Shown here: positions 265 to 6,891 of the stretch, piece after piece | Numbering within the stretch: the first letter of the stretch is position 1 | Layout: each line of letters opens with the position of its first letter | From: Anaerolineaceae bacterium UBA700 | Lineage (GTDB): Bacteria > Chloroflexota > Anaerolineae > Anaerolineales > Anaerolineaceae | Reading direction: 5' to 3' | Assembly: GCA_002298885.1 (NCBI GenBank) | Contig: DBMK01000099.1 | Span: forward strand, 1-8,153 | Length of the DNA: 8,153 bases | Translations under genes and position numbers: made by a program | Notes under the pieces: generated by a model | Seen by the model: only the letters and a program-made list of their open reading frames with translations | Databases searched by the model: none | Told to the model about the DNA's origin: nothing

Positions 265-3200
265 ATGAAACGTACCATGATCACGATCGATGCAAATGAA
301 GCCGTCGCCTACGTAGCCTACCGGCTGAACGAGGTGATTGCCATTTATCCGATCACCCCCTCCTCCAACATGGGCGAGCATTCCGATGCCTATTCGGCGG
401 CAAAAATCCCCAACCTGTGGGGGACCGTGCCGCTGGTGACCGAAATGCAATCCGAAGGCGGCGCGGCCGGAGCTGTGCACGGTGCCTTGCAAACCGGCAG
501 CCTGACCACCACCTTCACCGCCTCGCAAGGCCTGCTCTTGATGATCCCTAACATGTTCAAGATCGCAGGCGAGCTGACCTCGACCGTCTTCCACGTCTCG
601 GCCCGCTCCCTGGCGGCCCAGGCGCTGTCCATCTTCGGCGACCATTCCGACGTGATGGCAACCCGCTCGACCGGCTTTGCCCTGCTCTCCTCGCGCTCCG
701 TCCAGGAAGCGCACGACATGGCGCTGATCGCCACCGCGGCGACCCTGAAAGCCCGCGTGCCCTTCGTGCACTTCTTCGATGGCTTCCGCACTTCGCACGA
801 GGTCAACAAGATCGAGCTGCTGACCGAGGACGACATGCGCGCCATGATCGATATGGACCTGGTCAACGCCCACCGCGCCCGGGCCCTCTCTCCCGAACAT
901 CCCGTACTGCGCGGCACCGCCCAGAACCCGGATGTTTACTTCCAGGCGCGTGAGACCAGCAACCCGTATTACAAAGCCACGCCGGCCATCGTCCAGGAAG
1001 CTATGGACAAGTTCGCCGGGATCAGCGGGCGTCAGTACCGCCTGTTCGACTACGCCGGGGCGAAGGATGCCGACCGCGTCATCGTGGTCATGGGCTCCGG
1101 CGCCGAAACAGCCGAGGAGACCGCCCTGTACCTCAACAAACAGGGTGAAAAATTGGGCGTGGTGACCGTACACCTGTTCCAGCCCTTCTCGGTAGAGCAC
1201 TTCGTCAAGGCGCTGCCGGCGACAGTCAAGAAGATCGCCGTGCTGGATCGCACCAAGGAACCCGGCTCGTTGGGCGAGCCGCTCTACCAGGACGTGGTCA
1301 CCGCCATCAGCGAAGGATTCAACAGCGGCATGACCCAGTTCAAGACACTGCCGGTCATCACCGGCGGGCGCTACGGTCTGTCATCGAAGGAATTTACCCC
1401 GGCCATGGTCAAGGCCATCTTCGAGGAGCTCAAGAAGGACGCCCCCAAGAACCATTTCACCATCGGCATCAACGACGACGTCACCCATTCCAGCCTGGAC
1501 TACGACCCGAGCTTTTCGATCAGCTCGCCGGATACGGTACGCTGCATGTTCTTCGGCGTTGGCTCGGACGGCACGGTTGGCGCCAACAAGAACTCGATCA
1601 AGATTATCGGCGAGGATACCGACAACCACGCTCAGGGCTATTTCGTTTACGACTCGAAGAAATCCGGCCAGGTGACCATTTCGCACCTGCGCTTCGGCCC
1701 GCACCCCATCCGGGCGCCCTACCTGATCGGTGAAGGCGAGGCCAATTTTGTAGCCTGCCACCAGTTCAGCTTCCTGGAACGGGTCAACATGACCAAATAT
1801 GCGGCCAAGGGCGGCGTCTTCCTGCTCAACAGCATCTACGGGCCGGACGAGGTCTGGGCTCACCTGCCGCAGGAAGTGCAGACGGACATTATTGCTAAGA
1901 AACTGCGTTTCTTTGTCATCGACGGATACGAAGTGGCCCACAAGACCGGTATGGGCGGTCGGGTCAACACGATCATGCAGACGGCCTTTTTCTATATCTC
2001 CAACATCCTGCCCGCCGACGAGGCCATCGCCCAGATTAAGAAATCGATCAAGAAGACCTACGGGAAACGCGGCGAAGCCGTAGTTCAGCAGAACTTCGAC
2101 GCCGTTGACGGCACGATTGCCAACCTGTTCGAAGTGAAGGTGCCTGAGAAGGCAACCTCCAAGGAAACCCGCCGCCCGGCCGTGCCGGCTGAAGCGCCCG
2201 AATTCGTCAAGAAAACCCTGGGCGCGATCATCGCCTTCGAAGGCGACGAGCTTCCGGTCAGCGCCATGCCAGTGGACGGCACCTTCCCTACCAACACGGC
2301 CCGCTGGGAAAAACGCAATCTGGCGCTGGAGATCCCGGTCTGGGAACCCTCGCTGTGCATCCAGTGTGGCAAGTGCGTTTTCGTCTGCCCCCACGCTGTC
2401 ATCCGCCAGAAGGTTTACGATCCAACCGCTTTGGCCGGCGCCCCGGCGACCTTCAAATCGCTGGACGCCAAGTACAAGGAATTCCCGGGCACCAAATACA
2501 CTATCCAGGTGGCGCCCGAAGACTGCACCGGCTGCGCCCTGTGCGTTGAAGCCTGCCCTGCCAAGGACAAATCCAACGCCAGCCGCAAGGCGCTCAACAT
2601 GGCCGACCAACTTCCGCTGCGCGAGCCCGAGAGCGTCAATTGGGAATTCTTCCTGAACCTGCCCGATCCCGACCGCACCGCGGCGGCGCCGACGACCATC
2701 AAGAACTCGCAGCTCTACACGCCTCTGTTCGAATTCTCAGGCGCCTGCTCAGGCTGCGGCGAGACGCCGTACATCAAGCTGGTCTCCCAGCTCTTCGGCG
2801 ACCGGGCGATTGTGGCCAATGCCACCGGCTGCACCTCGATCTACGGCGGCAACCTGCCCACCACTCCGTGGGCAGCCAACAAAGATGGACGCGGCCCGGC
2901 CTGGTCGAACTCGCTGTTCGAGGACAACGCCGAATTTGGCCTGGGCATGCGCCTGACGCTGGACAAGCAGGCCGAATTTGCTCGCGAGCTGCTGCCACAG
3001 TTTGGCGGCGAACTGAGCGAAGAGCTGGTCAGCGGCCTGCTGACCGCCGACCAATCCGATGAAACCGGCATCAAGGCGCAGCGCGAACGGGTGGCCGAGC
3101 TCAAGAAGCGCCTCGCCGGGAGCAAGAACCCCAAGGCGGCCATCCTGCTCGGCGTGGCCGATGCCCTGGTAAAGAAAAGCGTGTGGATCATGGGCGGCGA

Positions 3201-3840
3201 CGGCTGGGCGTACGACATCGGCTACGGCGGCCTGGACCACGTGCTGGCCTCCGGGCGCAACGTCAACGTGCTGGTGCTGGATACCGAAGTATATTCGAAT
3301 ACCGGCGGGCAGTCCTCCAAATCGACCCCACGCGCTGCGGTGGCCAAGTTCGCCGCCAACGGCAAGAATATGCCCAAGAAGGACCTGGGTCTGATCGCCA
3401 TGGCCTACGGCTACGTCTACGTGGCACATGTGGCCATGGGCTCCAGTGACGCCCAGACTCTGAAGGCCTTCCTGGAAGCCGAAGCTTACGACGGACCATC
3501 GTTGATCATCGCCTACAGCCACTGCATCAATCACGGCATCGACATGCGCAAGGGACTCGACCAACAGCGCCTGGCCGTTGCCTCGGGCATCTGGCCGCTG
3601 TACCGCTACAACCCGTCCCTGGCCGACGAAGGCAAGAACCCGCTGATAATCGACTCGAAGGACCCAAGCGTGTCGGTGCAGGACTATGCTTACAATGAGA
3701 CCCGCTACCGCATGCTGGTCCAAAGCGACGAAGCGCGGGCCGAAATGCTGATGAAGGAAGCCAAACAGGACGTTTCCAAGCGCTGGGAGCTCTACAAACA
3801 GATGGCGGCTATCCAGTATAAAGCCCCGGACGAACAGTAG
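265..3840 (+). CDS. nifJ: Pyruvate:ferredoxin (flavodoxin) oxidoreductase, single-chain
   Basis: This cytoplasmic enzyme oxidises pyruvate with CoA to acetyl-CoA and CO2, passing electrons to ferredoxin or flavodoxin; the reverse reaction also occurs in some anaerobes. The 1191-residue length is normal for the homodimeric one-chain family. In order: N-terminal domain with YPITPSS (28-34), Glu64 in the EMQSEGG stretch, and Arg114 in HVSARS. By my recollection these match the catalytic Thr31, Glu64 and Arg114 of the Desulfovibrio africanus enzyme. Then come the transketolase C-like domain (VIVVMGSGAE, about 272-400), the gamma-type domain (FFGVGSDGTVGANK, about 430-630), and two 4Fe-4S clusters (C698, C701, C704, C708; C754, C757, C760, C764). 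The thiamine-diphosphate domain has GDG at 978-980 and N1012, with proximal-cluster cysteines C828, C831, C856 and C1087. No key residue is missing. The ATG is supported by GGAG at 253-256, 8 bases upstream. First gene of a two-gene operon. Confidence 0.97.
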   Translation: MKRTMITIDANEAVAYVAYRLNEVIAIYPITPSSNMGEHSDAYSAAKIPNLWGTVPLVTEMQSEGGAAGAVHGALQTGSLTTTFTASQGLLLMIPNMFKIAGELTSTVFHVSARSLAAQALSIFGDHSDVMATRSTGFALLSSRSVQEAHDMALIATAATLKARVPFVHFFDGFRTSHEVNKIELLTEDDMRAMIDMDLVNAHRARALSPEHPVLRGTAQNPDVYFQARETSNPYYKATPAIVQEAMDKFAGISGRQYRLFDYAGAKDADRVIVVMGSGAETAEETALYLNKQGEKLGVVTVHLFQPFSVEHFVKALPATVKKIAVLDRTKEPGSLGEPLYQDVVTAISEGFNSGMTQFKTLPVITGGRYGLSSKEFTPAMVKAIFEELKKDAPKNHFTIGINDDVTHSSLDYDPSFSISSPDTVRCMFFGVGSDGTVGANKNSIKIIGEDTDNHAQGYFVYDSKKSGQVTISHLRFGPHPIRAPYLIGEGEANFVACHQFSFLERVNMTKYAAKGGVFLLNSIYGPDEVWAHLPQEVQTDIIAKKLRFFVIDGYEVAHKTGMGGRVNTIMQTAFFYISNILPADEAIAQIKKSIKKTYGKRGEAVVQQNFDAVDGTIANLFEVKVPEKATSKETRRPAVPAEAPEFVKKTLGAIIAFEGDELPVSAMPVDGTFPTNTARWEKRNLALEIPVWEPSLCIQCGKCVFVCPHAVIRQKVYDPTALAGAPATFKSLDAKYKEFPGTKYTIQVAPEDCTGCALCVEACPAKDKSNASRKALNMADQLPLREPESVNWEFFLNLPDPDRTAAAPTTIKNSQLYTPLFEFSGACSGCGETPYIKLVSQLFGDRAIVANATGCTSIYGGNLPTTPWAANKDGRGPAWSNSLFEDNAEFGLGMRLTLDKQAEFARELLPQFGGELSEELVSGLLTADQSDETGIKAQRERVAELKKRLAGSKNPKAAILLGVADALVKKSVWIMGGDGWAYDIGYGGLDHVLASGRNVNVLVLDTEVYSNTGGQSSKSTPRAAVAKFAANGKNMPKKDLGLIAMAYGYVYVAHVAMGSSDAQTLKAFLEAEAYDGPSLIIAYSHCINHGIDMRKGLDQQRLAVASGIWPLYRYNPSLADEGKNPLIIDSKDPSVSVQDYAYNETRYRMLVQSDEARAEMLMKEAKQDVSKRWELYKQMAAIQYKAPDEQ

Positions 3841-3849
3841 GAGGTTAAC

Positions 3850-4851
3850 ATGCCCGAACTGAATACGACTTACCTCGGTTTACACCTGAAGAACCCCGTT
3901 GTGGCTTCGGCCTCGCCCCTGTCCAAGAAACTGGACTCGGTAAAGCGGCTGGAAGATGCCGGCATCAGCGCACTGGTGATGTACTCGCTATTCGAGGAAC
4001 AAATCGTGCATGAAAGCCTGGCACTGAACTACTTCCTCGATCGTGGCACCGAGTCGTTTGCCGAGTCGCTGACTTATTTCCCCGACCTGGACCACTACAA
4101 CGTGAGCGGCGAGGGATACCTGGAACTGATCCAGAAGATCAAGGCCTCGGTCAATATTCCCATCATCGGCAGTCTCAATGGCTACACCCCCGGAGGCTGG
4201 ATCGAATACGCCAAAAAGATCGAACAGGCCGGAGCGGATGCGCTCGAGCTGAACATGTATGCCGTGGCTACCGACCCTCTGCAGACCAGCCAGGACCTGG
4301 AACAATCCTACGTCGACCTGGTGGCCGACGTGCACAAGCAGATCCACATCCCGCTGGCAATCAAGCTGAGCCCGTATTTCACGTCTCTGCCGAACCTGGC
4401 TGCCCGCCTGGTCAAGGCCGGGGCGAGCGGTCTGGTGCTGTTCAACCGCTTCCTGCAGCCGGATATCGACATCGAGACGCTGGAAGTGAATCCGCAGGCC
4501 CATCTGAGCACACAGGATGAGCTGCGCCTGCCGCTGCGCTGGATCGCCATCCTGTTCGGGCGGATCGAAGCCGACCTGGCCCTGACCAGCGGCGCCCATT
4601 CCGGCGAGGACGTGATCAAAGCCTGCATGGCCGGCGCCAACTGCGCCATGCTGGCCTCCGAGCTGATCGCCAAAGGCCCCGGGCGCGTCCCGGAGATCCT
4701 GGGCGAGATGACCCGCTGGATGGAGGAATTCGAGTACGACTCGATCAACCAGATGCGCGGCAGCATGAGCCAGAAGTCGGTGCCCGATCCGGCGGCCTTC
4801 GAGCGAGCGAATTATATGAAGGCGCTGCAAAGTTTCGATAACCGCTTCTAA
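3850..4851 (+). CDS. Dihydroorotate dehydrogenase-like FMN protein, operon partner of nifJ
   Basis: The 333-residue protein is a probable cytoplasmic FMN-binding TIM barrel of the dihydroorotate dehydrogenase superfamily. Visible elements are the opening [19 protein letters not shown] (first barrel strand and flavin loop), GSLNGY (107-112), ELNMYA (133-138), AIKLSP with K172, and [19 protein letters not shown] (from 246), which resembles the FMN-phosphate loop. True dihydroorotate dehydrogenases usually carry an N-x-S-x-P-N type stretch after ELN; here it reads NMYAVATDP, so that signature is absent. Pyrimidine synthesis is therefore doubtful. Its ATG lies 9 bases after the nifJ stop. The Shine-Dalgarno AGGAGG (3839-3844) overlaps that stop codon, so co-transcription and coupled translation with nifJ are likely. 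From memory, proteins annotated dihydroorotate dehydrogenase-like occur next to nifJ in other phyla. The substrate is unknown. Confidence 0.9.
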
Positions 4852-6083: not shown

Positions 6084-6119
6084 AAAAAAACTTCCGAAGT
6101 CCTAAAGACTTCGGAAGTT
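6084..6119 (-). terminator. Intrinsic terminator of the rpsU-infA unit
   Basis: A perfect 13-bp stem (arms 6107-6119 and 6089-6101, loop of five bases) is followed on the minus strand by seven U (read from the A run 6084-6090). It lies 16 bases past the infA stop codon. The plus-strand side has no T run, so it is a poor terminator for the lipoprotein gene, for which no other terminator is visible. Confidence 0.92.
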
Positions 6120-6135
6120 CCTTATAATTCCGGGC

Positions 6136-6393
6136 CTAAACTTCGGGCTCTTCGGCGCCGAATTCGTTCGGTTTCTTGGACCGGTAGACGATGCGGCCGC
6201 GAGTCAGGTCGTAGGGAGACATCTCCACCCGCACGTGGTCGCCCAGCAGGATGCGGATGTAATACTTGCGCATCCGGCCGGATAAATAAGCCAGGACGTT
6301 GGCTCCATTATCCAGGCGAACCCGAAACTGCGTACCGGGCAGGGCCTCAACGATCGTTCCTTCAACCTGAATCTTATCTTCTTCTTTCGCCAT
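6136..6393 (-). CDS. infA: Translation initiation factor IF-1
   Basis: IF-1 binds the 30S ribosomal A site during initiation and works with IF-2 and IF-3. The 85-residue product carries the whole S1-like OB fold: [16 protein letters not shown] (10-25), [17 protein letters not shown] (36-52) and the strongly conserved [13 protein letters not shown] (59-71). Common family members are about 72 residues. Here an acidic tail of about 13 residues ([13 protein letters not shown]) follows the fold, and the usual HISGKMR is YLSGRMR. The ATG at 6393 has GGAGG at 6405-6401, 7 bases upstream. It follows rpsU by 65 bases on the same strand, with no promoter or terminator visible between them, so the two are probably one transcript. 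Confidence 0.97.
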
Positions 6394-6458: not shown

Positions 6459-6659
6459 TTATTCCATCAACTTGCTGAACTGGCGGCGCTTAATCCGGCG
6501 GATCGCCTTTTTCTTTTCCACTCGACGCAGCTCACTCTTGGAAATGAACCAGCGCTTGCGGCGCACAGTGCTCAGTACACCACTCTTTACGACTTTCTTA
6601 CGAAAGCGCTTGAGCAGTTGCTCCTGCGACTCATTGGGACGTAAAATCACTGCTGGCAC
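6459..6659 (-). CDS. rpsU: 30S ribosomal protein S21
   Basis: S21 is a small basic protein of the 30S subunit, located near the 3' end of 16S rRNA and involved in initiation. The 66-residue product starts PAVILRPNESQEQLLKRF, followed by KSGVLSTVRRKRWF and a very basic C-terminal helix (KKKAIRRIKRRQ), the usual S21 pattern. The start is GTG at 6659. GGAGG at 6672-6668 lies 8 bases upstream, and the protein then begins like family members. The longer frame from 6713 would begin inside the terminator U-tract of the leader, and an ATG at 6674 overlaps the Shine-Dalgarno itself, so both are rejected. It is the first gene of the rpsU-infA unit, behind a promoter and an attenuator-like leader. Confidence 0.95.
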   Translation of the reverse strand: MPAVILRPNESQEQLLKRFRKKVVKSGVLSTVRRKRWFISKSELRRVEKKKAIRRIKRRQFSKLME

Positions 6660-6702
6660 TCTGTTCACCTCCATTCTTGCCCGGTATAAGGAAAGGGCGC
6701 AT

Positions 6703-6744
6703 AAAAAAAACAAAACCTGGCTCGCGGGACCAGCGTCAGCCAGG
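6703..6744 (-). terminator. Intrinsic terminator inside the rpsU leader (attenuator)
   Basis: On the minus strand CCUGGCU (6744-6738) pairs with AGCCAGG (6722-6716). A further CGC/GCG (6735-6733 with 6725-6723) stacks inside after a two-base bulge, giving 10 bp and a seven-base loop. It is followed by UUUUG and eight U (6715-6703). It ends 31 bases before the rpsU Shine-Dalgarno, so it would stop transcription before rpsU unless prevented. It could alternatively end a free small RNA of about 150 nt. Confidence 0.85.
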
Positions 6745-6797
6745 GCTCAGGCAACAGTATGGTGATTCACTCTGCGCAACCTGAAGTGTCCCGCGAA
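6721..6797 (-). promoter_or_regulatory. Candidate antiterminator helix of the rpsU leader
   Basis: CGCGGGAC (6795-6788) is perfectly complementary to GUCCCGCG (6730-6723); a U-A and a U-G pair (6797-6796 with 6722-6721) extend it to 10 bp. The downstream partner is the loop, inner stem and first two bases of the descending arm of the leader terminator. The two structures cross, so they cannot both form as nested helices. Inside the enclosed region UCAGG (6784-6780) can pair with CCUGA (6751-6747). AGGAGG (6804-6799) lies just 5' of the competing arm and has no ATG, GTG or TTG at translation distance. Complementarity is seen; regulation is inferred. Confidence 0.55.
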
Positions 6798-6839
6798 ACC
6801 TCCTGAAAGAAATAAGCTAGAAACGCGCAAGACGATAAG

Positions 6840-6851
6840 AAGCTTACGCTT
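6840..6851 (-). other. Small GUAA-tetraloop hairpin at the start of the rpsU leader
   Basis: AAGC-GUAA-GCUU at 6851-6840 forms a 4-bp stem capped by a GNRA tetraloop, about 5 bases after the predicted transcription start. It may stabilise the 5' end or belong to a larger leader fold. It is short enough to be chance. Confidence 0.35.
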
Positions 6852-6862
6852 ACTAATTATTT

Positions 6863-6891
6863 ATTATAACCTGGATGTTAAGAAATGTCAA
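6863..6891 (-). promoter_or_regulatory. Consensus sigma-70 promoter for rpsU-infA
   Basis: On the minus strand TTGACA (6891-6886) and TATAAT (6868-6863) are both exact consensus with a 17-base spacer, the optimum. Transcription should start near 6856, giving a leader of about 195 nt before the rpsU GTG. The -35 box is 22 bases past the MFS stop codon, so rpsU-infA is probably independent of the MFS gene. Confidence 0.92.

Follow-up and report, generated by a model that had tools for sequence, protein, structure and literature searches.

A probable transcription attenuator with a start-codon-poor Shine-Dalgarno-like box ahead of rpsU-infA in Chloroflexota

The window analysed here, the whole stretch of 8,153 nucleotides from Anaerolineaceae bacterium UBA700, carries on its minus strand the gene for ribosomal protein S21, rpsU (6459..6659; PF01165, 1.1e-12, and TIGR00030 above its cut-off), followed by infA, encoding translation initiation factor IF-1 (6136..6393; TIGR00008, 2.7e-33, and PF01176). 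These profile matches bear out an earlier, sequence-only reading of this DNA, which had named S21 and IF-1 as the genes under the leader. The rpsU start codon is a GTG at 6659 on the minus strand, preceded by the Shine-Dalgarno (SD) sequence GGAGGTG (6666..6672, minus strand). A terminator-like hairpin with a T-run lies 3' of infA (6084..6119, minus strand), and the palindrome can equally be read on the plus strand, at 6089-6119. Among the relatives described below, infA is found downstream of rpsU in all 76 testable loci with a leader and also in all 29 testable loci without one, so that having the two genes side by side does not set leader-bearing loci apart. Plasmid records match part of the rpsU-infA stretch in 37 cases, with none covering more than 80% of it. 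The upstream transcription unit in the window is an MFS gene, and the rpsU promoter is located between this gene and the terminator of the leader. At 265-4851 on the plus strand a gene for pyruvate:ferredoxin oxidoreductase (TIGR02176) and, after a gap of 9 nt, one for a dihydroorotate dehydrogenase-like protein (NF005741) are likely to form one operon.

The promoter is of the sigma-70 type, TTGACA and TATAAT separated by 17 nt (6863..6891, minus strand), and matches the consensus at 12 of 12 positions. With a start inferred 6-7 nt after TATAAT, near 6856, the 5' leader (6660..6856, minus strand) runs for ~197 nt to the rpsU GTG, in agreement with the consensus promoter and leader of about 195 nt described previously. 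The terminator hairpin (6716..6744, minus strand) is built from CCTGGCT (6744-6738) and AGCCAGG (6722-6716), which form seven pairs around a 15-nt segment (6737-6723) whose last bases are GTCCCGCG; with RNAfold the stem gains three inner pairs, CGC/GCG, and has an energy of -14.2 kcal/mol. The T-run that follows, TTTTGTTTTTTTT (6703..6715, minus strand), is the predicted 3' end of a short RNA and lies 30 nt ahead of the rpsU SD core GGAGG (6672-6668). Stem, T-run and spacing together correspond to the strong intrinsic terminator that had been placed shortly before the rpsU SD.

The 8-base complementarity noticed earlier within the leader is also present: CGCGGGAC (6795-6788) and GTCCCGCG (6730-6723) are complementary without a mismatch, and the longest exact complement between leader and terminator is 9 nt. 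When the RNA is folded from the inferred start to the T-run, the MFE structure (-47.2 kcal/mol) is an antiterminator in which 6800-6797 pair with 6722-6719 and 6795-6788 with 6730-6723, so that the leader of the window is predicted to fold by default for read-through. The 5' arm of this helix, GGUU-U-CGCGGGAC (6788..6800, minus strand), has a duplex energy of -32.6 kcal/mol with its own terminator; the 3' arm, GUCCCGCGAGCC (6719..6730, minus strand), comprises the bases enclosed by the terminator together with the first half of the terminator 3' arm, and a further hairpin (6746..6785, minus strand) is enclosed by the antiterminator in the MFE fold. The view that the two helices are mutually exclusive stands by way of the extension into AGCC (6722-6719), which belongs to the terminator 3' arm; it does not stand on the 8-base match alone, since contacts confined to the enclosed bases might form a pseudoknot. 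The antiterminator has at its foot an element absent from the earlier reading, the SD-like box AGGAGG (6799..6804, minus strand), whose last two G are overlapped by the antiterminator 5' arm. Pairing of the box with the anti-SD is calculated at -11.5 kcal/mol against a shuffle mean of -6.3, using an assumed anti-SD string, and no ATG, GTG or TTG follows at usable spacing.

On the evidence of the window alone, attenuation is no more than suggested. A perfect complement between leader and terminator of at least 8 nt arises in 76 of 2000 dinucleotide shuffles and one of at least 9 nt in 17 of 2000; the duplex energy has p ~0.065, and the whole-leader fold gives z values of -0.37 and -1.36. It is the relatives that carry the case. 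From 177 sources we obtained 176 upstream regions, which were reduced to 166 unique rpsU loci, nearly all from Chloroflexota, by removing duplicates of the last 150 nt. Those on named contigs are the best 80 of 258 confirmed places, and almost all carry Chloroflexota, Anaerolineae or an Anaerolineae genus in their titles, with one Paludibacter; others come from genomes in the class of Anaerolinea thermolimosa, where 294 of 396 matched and 60 more regions were taken. The leaders include those of the cultured strains Anaerolinea thermolimosa IMO-1 (L031), Longilinea arvoryzae KOME-1 (L010) and Bellilinea caldifistulae GOMI-1 (L006).

An intrinsic terminator, called where the T-run starts 18-110 nt ahead of the rpsU start codon, is located just before rpsU in 91 of these 166 loci. 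The other 75 are without one by this T-run-distance test, and the leader is therefore not universal in the class. By eye, four terminator-less loci (L024, L030, L054 and L102) still show promoter and box. At L055, L058, L061, L063-L065, L072 and L074 the leader is replaced by a reading frame closely preceding rpsU, which by eye appears to be S1-domain-like. Ten of the 91 loci were set aside, two (L002 and L139) on account of their promoter score and eight by name after inspection (L059, L068, L071, L073, L075, L100, L109 and L110), which leaves 81 leaders; L091 was excluded from the pairing analysis onward, and from the remaining 80 a greedy choice at <75% identity gave 53 representatives. TATAAT lies mostly 96-150 nt ahead of the terminator stem in the kept relatives. 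For L059, L068, L071, L073 and L075 the gap between promoter and terminator is 56-62 nt and there is no SD-like box, and these short leaders are possibly a reduced form.

Pairing between leader and terminator was assessed as the mean duplex energy of a leader region with its own terminator and with permuted terminators. The arm proximal to the SD-like box gives -19.67 with its own terminators and -16.81 with permuted ones, and the 5' region of the leader -19.51 and -17.32, neither own value being reached in 20000 permutations; leader by leader, a place for the own terminator among the best 10% is seen in no more than 16 of the 53 SD-proximal arms and 13 of the 53 5' regions. Divided into classes by box sequence, the representatives separate. 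For GGAGG leaders (n = 26) it is the SD-proximal arm that prefers its own terminator (0/20000), the 5' region being not significant (1251/20000), and the same holds for a remaining class of six, mostly GAGG (54/20000 for the arm, 1622/20000 and not significant for the 5' region). For AGGAG leaders (n = 14) and GAGGTGA leaders (n = 7) the preference belongs to the 5' region (7/20000 and 10/20000), and the SD-proximal arm is not significant (12142/20000 and 11603/20000). This double dissociation by class indicates two wirings, in which the antiterminator arm starts at the SD-like box in the GGAGG kind, to which the window belongs, and lies near the 5' end of the RNA in the AGGAG and GAGGTGA kinds. 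As the two regions are drawn from the same genomes, composition alone explains the double dissociation poorly.

When the arms themselves are shuffled, the effect comes out milder. In the classes used for this and for the masking calculation below, for which L022 was reassigned to class A once its pairing was known and the six-member class was merged into A, the mean z against shuffled arms is -1.68 for A (13 of 33 at p<=0.05), -1.25 for B (4 of 13) and -1.81 for C (4 of 7), compared with -0.06, 0.99 and -0.05 for the non-pairing region of the same classes. Pairs were also counted in three alignments of chosen members (A1, A2 and A3, with 15, 16 and 17 sequences, some trimmed at their 5' ends), on structures derived from the same sequences they were scored on. 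The type-A terminator has 93.3% of its cells paired, against 17.8-41.7% when slid, with a covariation score reached in 0 of 500 shuffles. The type-A antiterminator has 79.2% of cells paired (30.7-46.1% when slid) and a covariation score reached in 7/500 shuffles; its 6 pairs with double changes are matched in 50/500 shuffles and in one slid version. For the type-B antiterminator 96.9% of cells are paired (31.0-56.0% when slid), the score is reached in 1/500 shuffles and 4 pairs show double changes. In the type-B alignment A2 (L077:1845-1986 and 15 related sequences) there is in addition a hairpin, GAAGCG..UUGAUCG..GGUCA..CGUUUC, directly 3' of the AAGGAG box, with 8 of its 11 pairs invariant across the 16 sequences. 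It does not show up in the type-A alignment, and could be a binding site for protein or RNA.

Two covariance models were built from the relatives, R2 from 17 type-A leaders and R1 from type B, and neither picks up the window at E values up to 1. At E<=0.01, R2 finds leaders outside its training set in 8 of 27 sources (L022, L013, L052, L057, L050, L023, L069 and L049), the window not among them. Across 298 genomes it matches 7 at the same threshold, three of them at rpsU, two of which had fed the model. Of the matches away from rpsU, L180 lies inside a coding frame, L181 is intergenic, by eye with a short ORF after it, and was put down to chance, and L182 and L183 are the other two. R1 matches 8 of 201 Chloroflexota genomes, once each and by coordinates directly upstream of rpsU, these or near-identical genomes having supplied its sequences; under strict filters it gives no second copy and no match in the other 193.

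Given the terminators at 91 of the 166 loci, the preference for own over permuted terminators and its class-specific dissociation, the comparative evidence makes it very probable that the rpsU-infA leader is a transcription attenuator, as had been proposed from the window. Part of the test suggested for that proposal was that both helices be conserved ahead of rpsU in related genomes and show compensatory changes; the relatives have the terminator, antiterminators that co-vary with it, and paired cells well above the slid controls.

The element common to both wirings is the SD-like box. In 51 of the 53 representatives an SD 5-mer begins 48-75 nt ahead of the terminator, compared with a mean of 3.8 and a maximum of 10 in 500 shuffles; the box is present in 79 of the 81 kept leaders (the misses are L051 and L079) and in 81 of the 91 terminator loci, and the best SD match has a median position 59 nt ahead of the terminator. 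By SD energy alone, 30 of the 81 leaders fall individually below 0.05 (40 shuffles each). An anti-SD-like partner within the leader is not enriched (5/53 against 6.7). In the GAGGTGA leaders L012, L020, L024, L036, L039 and L043 the box can by eye pair with a downstream GGAUCGCC-like segment which appears to resemble the 16S 3' end. A search for the anti-SD in 7 genomes with two patterns did not find it, the rRNA being perhaps missing or masked.

Start codons are scarce after the box. ATG, GTG or TTG occurs 4-11 nt downstream in 10 of the 53 representatives, where 22.7 are expected (as low in 1 of 5000 draws); for ATG the count is 1 against 5.4 (74/5000), for ATG and GTG together 4 against 12.3 (5/5000), and over the 80 leaders the count is 14 against 34.6. 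Control triplets show no clear depletion for CAT/CAC/CAA (20 against 15.8) or TAG/TGG/TGT (14 against 16.7). A third control, GTA/GTG/GTT, is low too (15 against 21.6, 179/5000), and part of the depletion may therefore be compositional. ATC/ATT/ATA are not depleted (20 against 21.5), which leaves room for unusual start codons.

What might such a box do in an attenuator? Tentatively, we favour the 30S subunit as the ligand of the leader, and we put forward with equal reserve the whole mechanism, a 30S-docking attenuator with negative feedback. A 30S subunit with a free 16S 3' end would pair with the AGGAGG box; because no start codon follows, the docked subunit would be unable to initiate. It would cover the adjoining antiterminator arm, whereupon the terminator would form and synthesis of S21 and IF-1 would stop. 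Where subunits competent for SD pairing are scarce, for example when they lack S21, the antiterminator would win and both genes would be transcribed, the outcome being negative feedback on the supply of S21 and IF-1. Passages of a 2024 review cite S21 in E. coli as enabling the 16S 3' end to pair with the SD (PMC10931766), and it is this reported effect that makes S21 a fitting sensed variable. A more specific proposal is that a conserved decoy SD, kept free of start codons, would capture 30S subunits, so that transcription of S21 and IF-1 would answer to the cell's capacity for SD pairing, which S21 sets; this we regard as a degree more doubtful.

Masking calculations bear on this model unequally. 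A mask of 30S size on the window box raises the predicted terminator probability from 0.016 to 0.64, and the same mask raises the type-A median from 0.16 to 0.90 (n = 33), a result that is partly circular because the antiterminator arm adjoins the box; the free terminator probability is <0.1 in only 15 of these 33 leaders. Masking the box moves little in type B (n = 13, median 0.05 to 0.25) and type C (n = 7, 0.016 to 0.12), where masks nearer the 5' end of the RNA act better. For the 5'-wired leaders the calculation supports 30S docking weakly: either the subunit would act there by getting in the way of long-range pairing, or the docking model is not complete.

Other ligands, or none, have to be weighed against a docking 30S subunit. 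Classical ribosomal-protein operon logic, as for L20 or L10(L12)4 elsewhere, would have free S21 (or IF-1) bind the leader and stabilise the terminator, with the purine box as part of the protein site, and the strongly conserved type-B hairpin could be read in this way. The type-A alignment shows no such hairpin, however, and a plain protein site would not need a common SD-like box with start codons depleted after it; we consider free S21 possible, if unlikely. The leader might also respond to no ligand, its competing helices fixing a read-through fraction that is constant or dependent on growth rate. Predicted free terminator probabilities span ~1e-7 to 0.996, as if set-points differed, but the narrow distance of the box and the depleted start codons are then left unexplained, and this reading seems to us quite improbable. 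If instead the box were a standby or docking site by which 30S subunits aid translation of rpsU, attenuation being a separate matter, local pairing of the rpsU SD would have a rationale: its mean is 0.76, against 0.63 with shuffled upstream sequence, and it exceeds its own shuffles in 45 of 51 representatives, the window showing the opposite (0.69 against 0.77). Against this stand the position of the box, which precedes the terminator, and its contact with the antiterminator arm in type A; we give a standby site a small chance.

The box contains GGA, and CsrA or another GGA-binding protein could read it. A first look found the CsrA family in 5 of 8 leader genomes, but it is present in only 15 of 53 leader genomes drawn from the 80 leader loci (a list that differs from the 53 representatives), some absences perhaps reflecting incompleteness since many are MAGs; CsrA is rejected as a general ligand, and a GGA-binding reader of any kind has little to commend it. 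Insulation of rpsU from upstream transcription would suit the MFS gene in the window and the 5S rRNA found within 2 kb upstream of rpsU in 4 of 16 loci searched (L002, L003, L019 and L025), relatives here having rRNA operons as neighbours. The promoter is nevertheless found downstream of the MFS gene and ahead of the terminator, with the same arrangement in relatives, and the antiterminators co-vary; a constitutive insulator is accordingly unlikely, and we would give the merely insulating terminator very little weight. Lowest of all we place a leader-peptide attenuator, in which a ribosome would translate a short ORF from the box. The SD-like box is there, and 10 of the 53 representatives do have ATG, GTG or TTG at usable spacing, but ATG is found in a single one, start codons as a whole are depleted, and the candidate ORFs differ in length, stop and sequence; for ordinary start codons the leader peptide is rejected, and its likelihood is close to negligible.

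The proposed 30S-docking attenuator belongs to the broad kind of ribosomal-protein and translation-factor attenuators, and no known ribosomal-protein leader is recognised in it, in keeping with the earlier reading. Rfam 15 gives for the window only five microRNA matches far below the gathering score, and for 16 of the loci only rRNA, with no ribosomal-protein leader family. In Bacillus subtilis the L20 (infC) and L10(L12)4 (rplJL) attenuators likewise place a terminator/antiterminator leader before a ribosomal-protein operon, and are described in passages of PMC10931766 and PMC4538822 as responding to the ribosomal protein itself. A survey of premature terminators contains the rimP- and rpsL-leaders, attenuators of the translation machinery, the latter multiform between groups; in the passages concerned these control genes other than rpsU (PMC2965389), and the main text of that survey has no rpsU, S21, Chloroflex or Shine-Dalgarno. 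Neither rpsU nor S21 appears in the main text of a survey of 104 candidate structured RNAs (PMC2864571). Searches of the open-licence PMC literature gave no rpsU attenuator among the matches listed, and no paper with the decoy-SD or non-initiating-30S phrases tried.

The closest likeness in the control of rpsU is the autoregulation of bS21 in Flavobacterium, which in passages of PMC9976891 depends on SD/anti-SD pairing and on the presence of bS21 in ribosomes. That control is translational, acts at the gene's own SD and is favoured by ribosomes lacking bS21 (PMC9976891), whereas in the Chloroflexota leaders a separate upstream box without a start codon sits inside a probable transcription attenuator; the main text of the Flavobacterium paper makes no mention of attenuation or Chloroflexota. 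In Sinorhizobium, ribosome availability at a leader RBS is proposed to control premature termination ahead of a DUF1127 gene. According to passages of PMC12218461 this attenuation needs translation of a uORF, in contrast to the leaders here, where start codons after the box are depleted. For E. coli, a passage of the 2024 review states that the regulation of rpsU remains unknown (PMC10931766). If the docking model is true, the initiating subunit would be sensed directly, with neither translation nor a free ribosomal protein, linking S21 dosage to SD use. With one box common to two wirings, the idea lends itself to tests with simple reporters and purified components.

Finally, in many leader loci, among them L001, L006 and L011, the rpsU SD tends to be part of a small hairpin, UCCCU..AGGGAGG, which suggests a second, translational layer of control.
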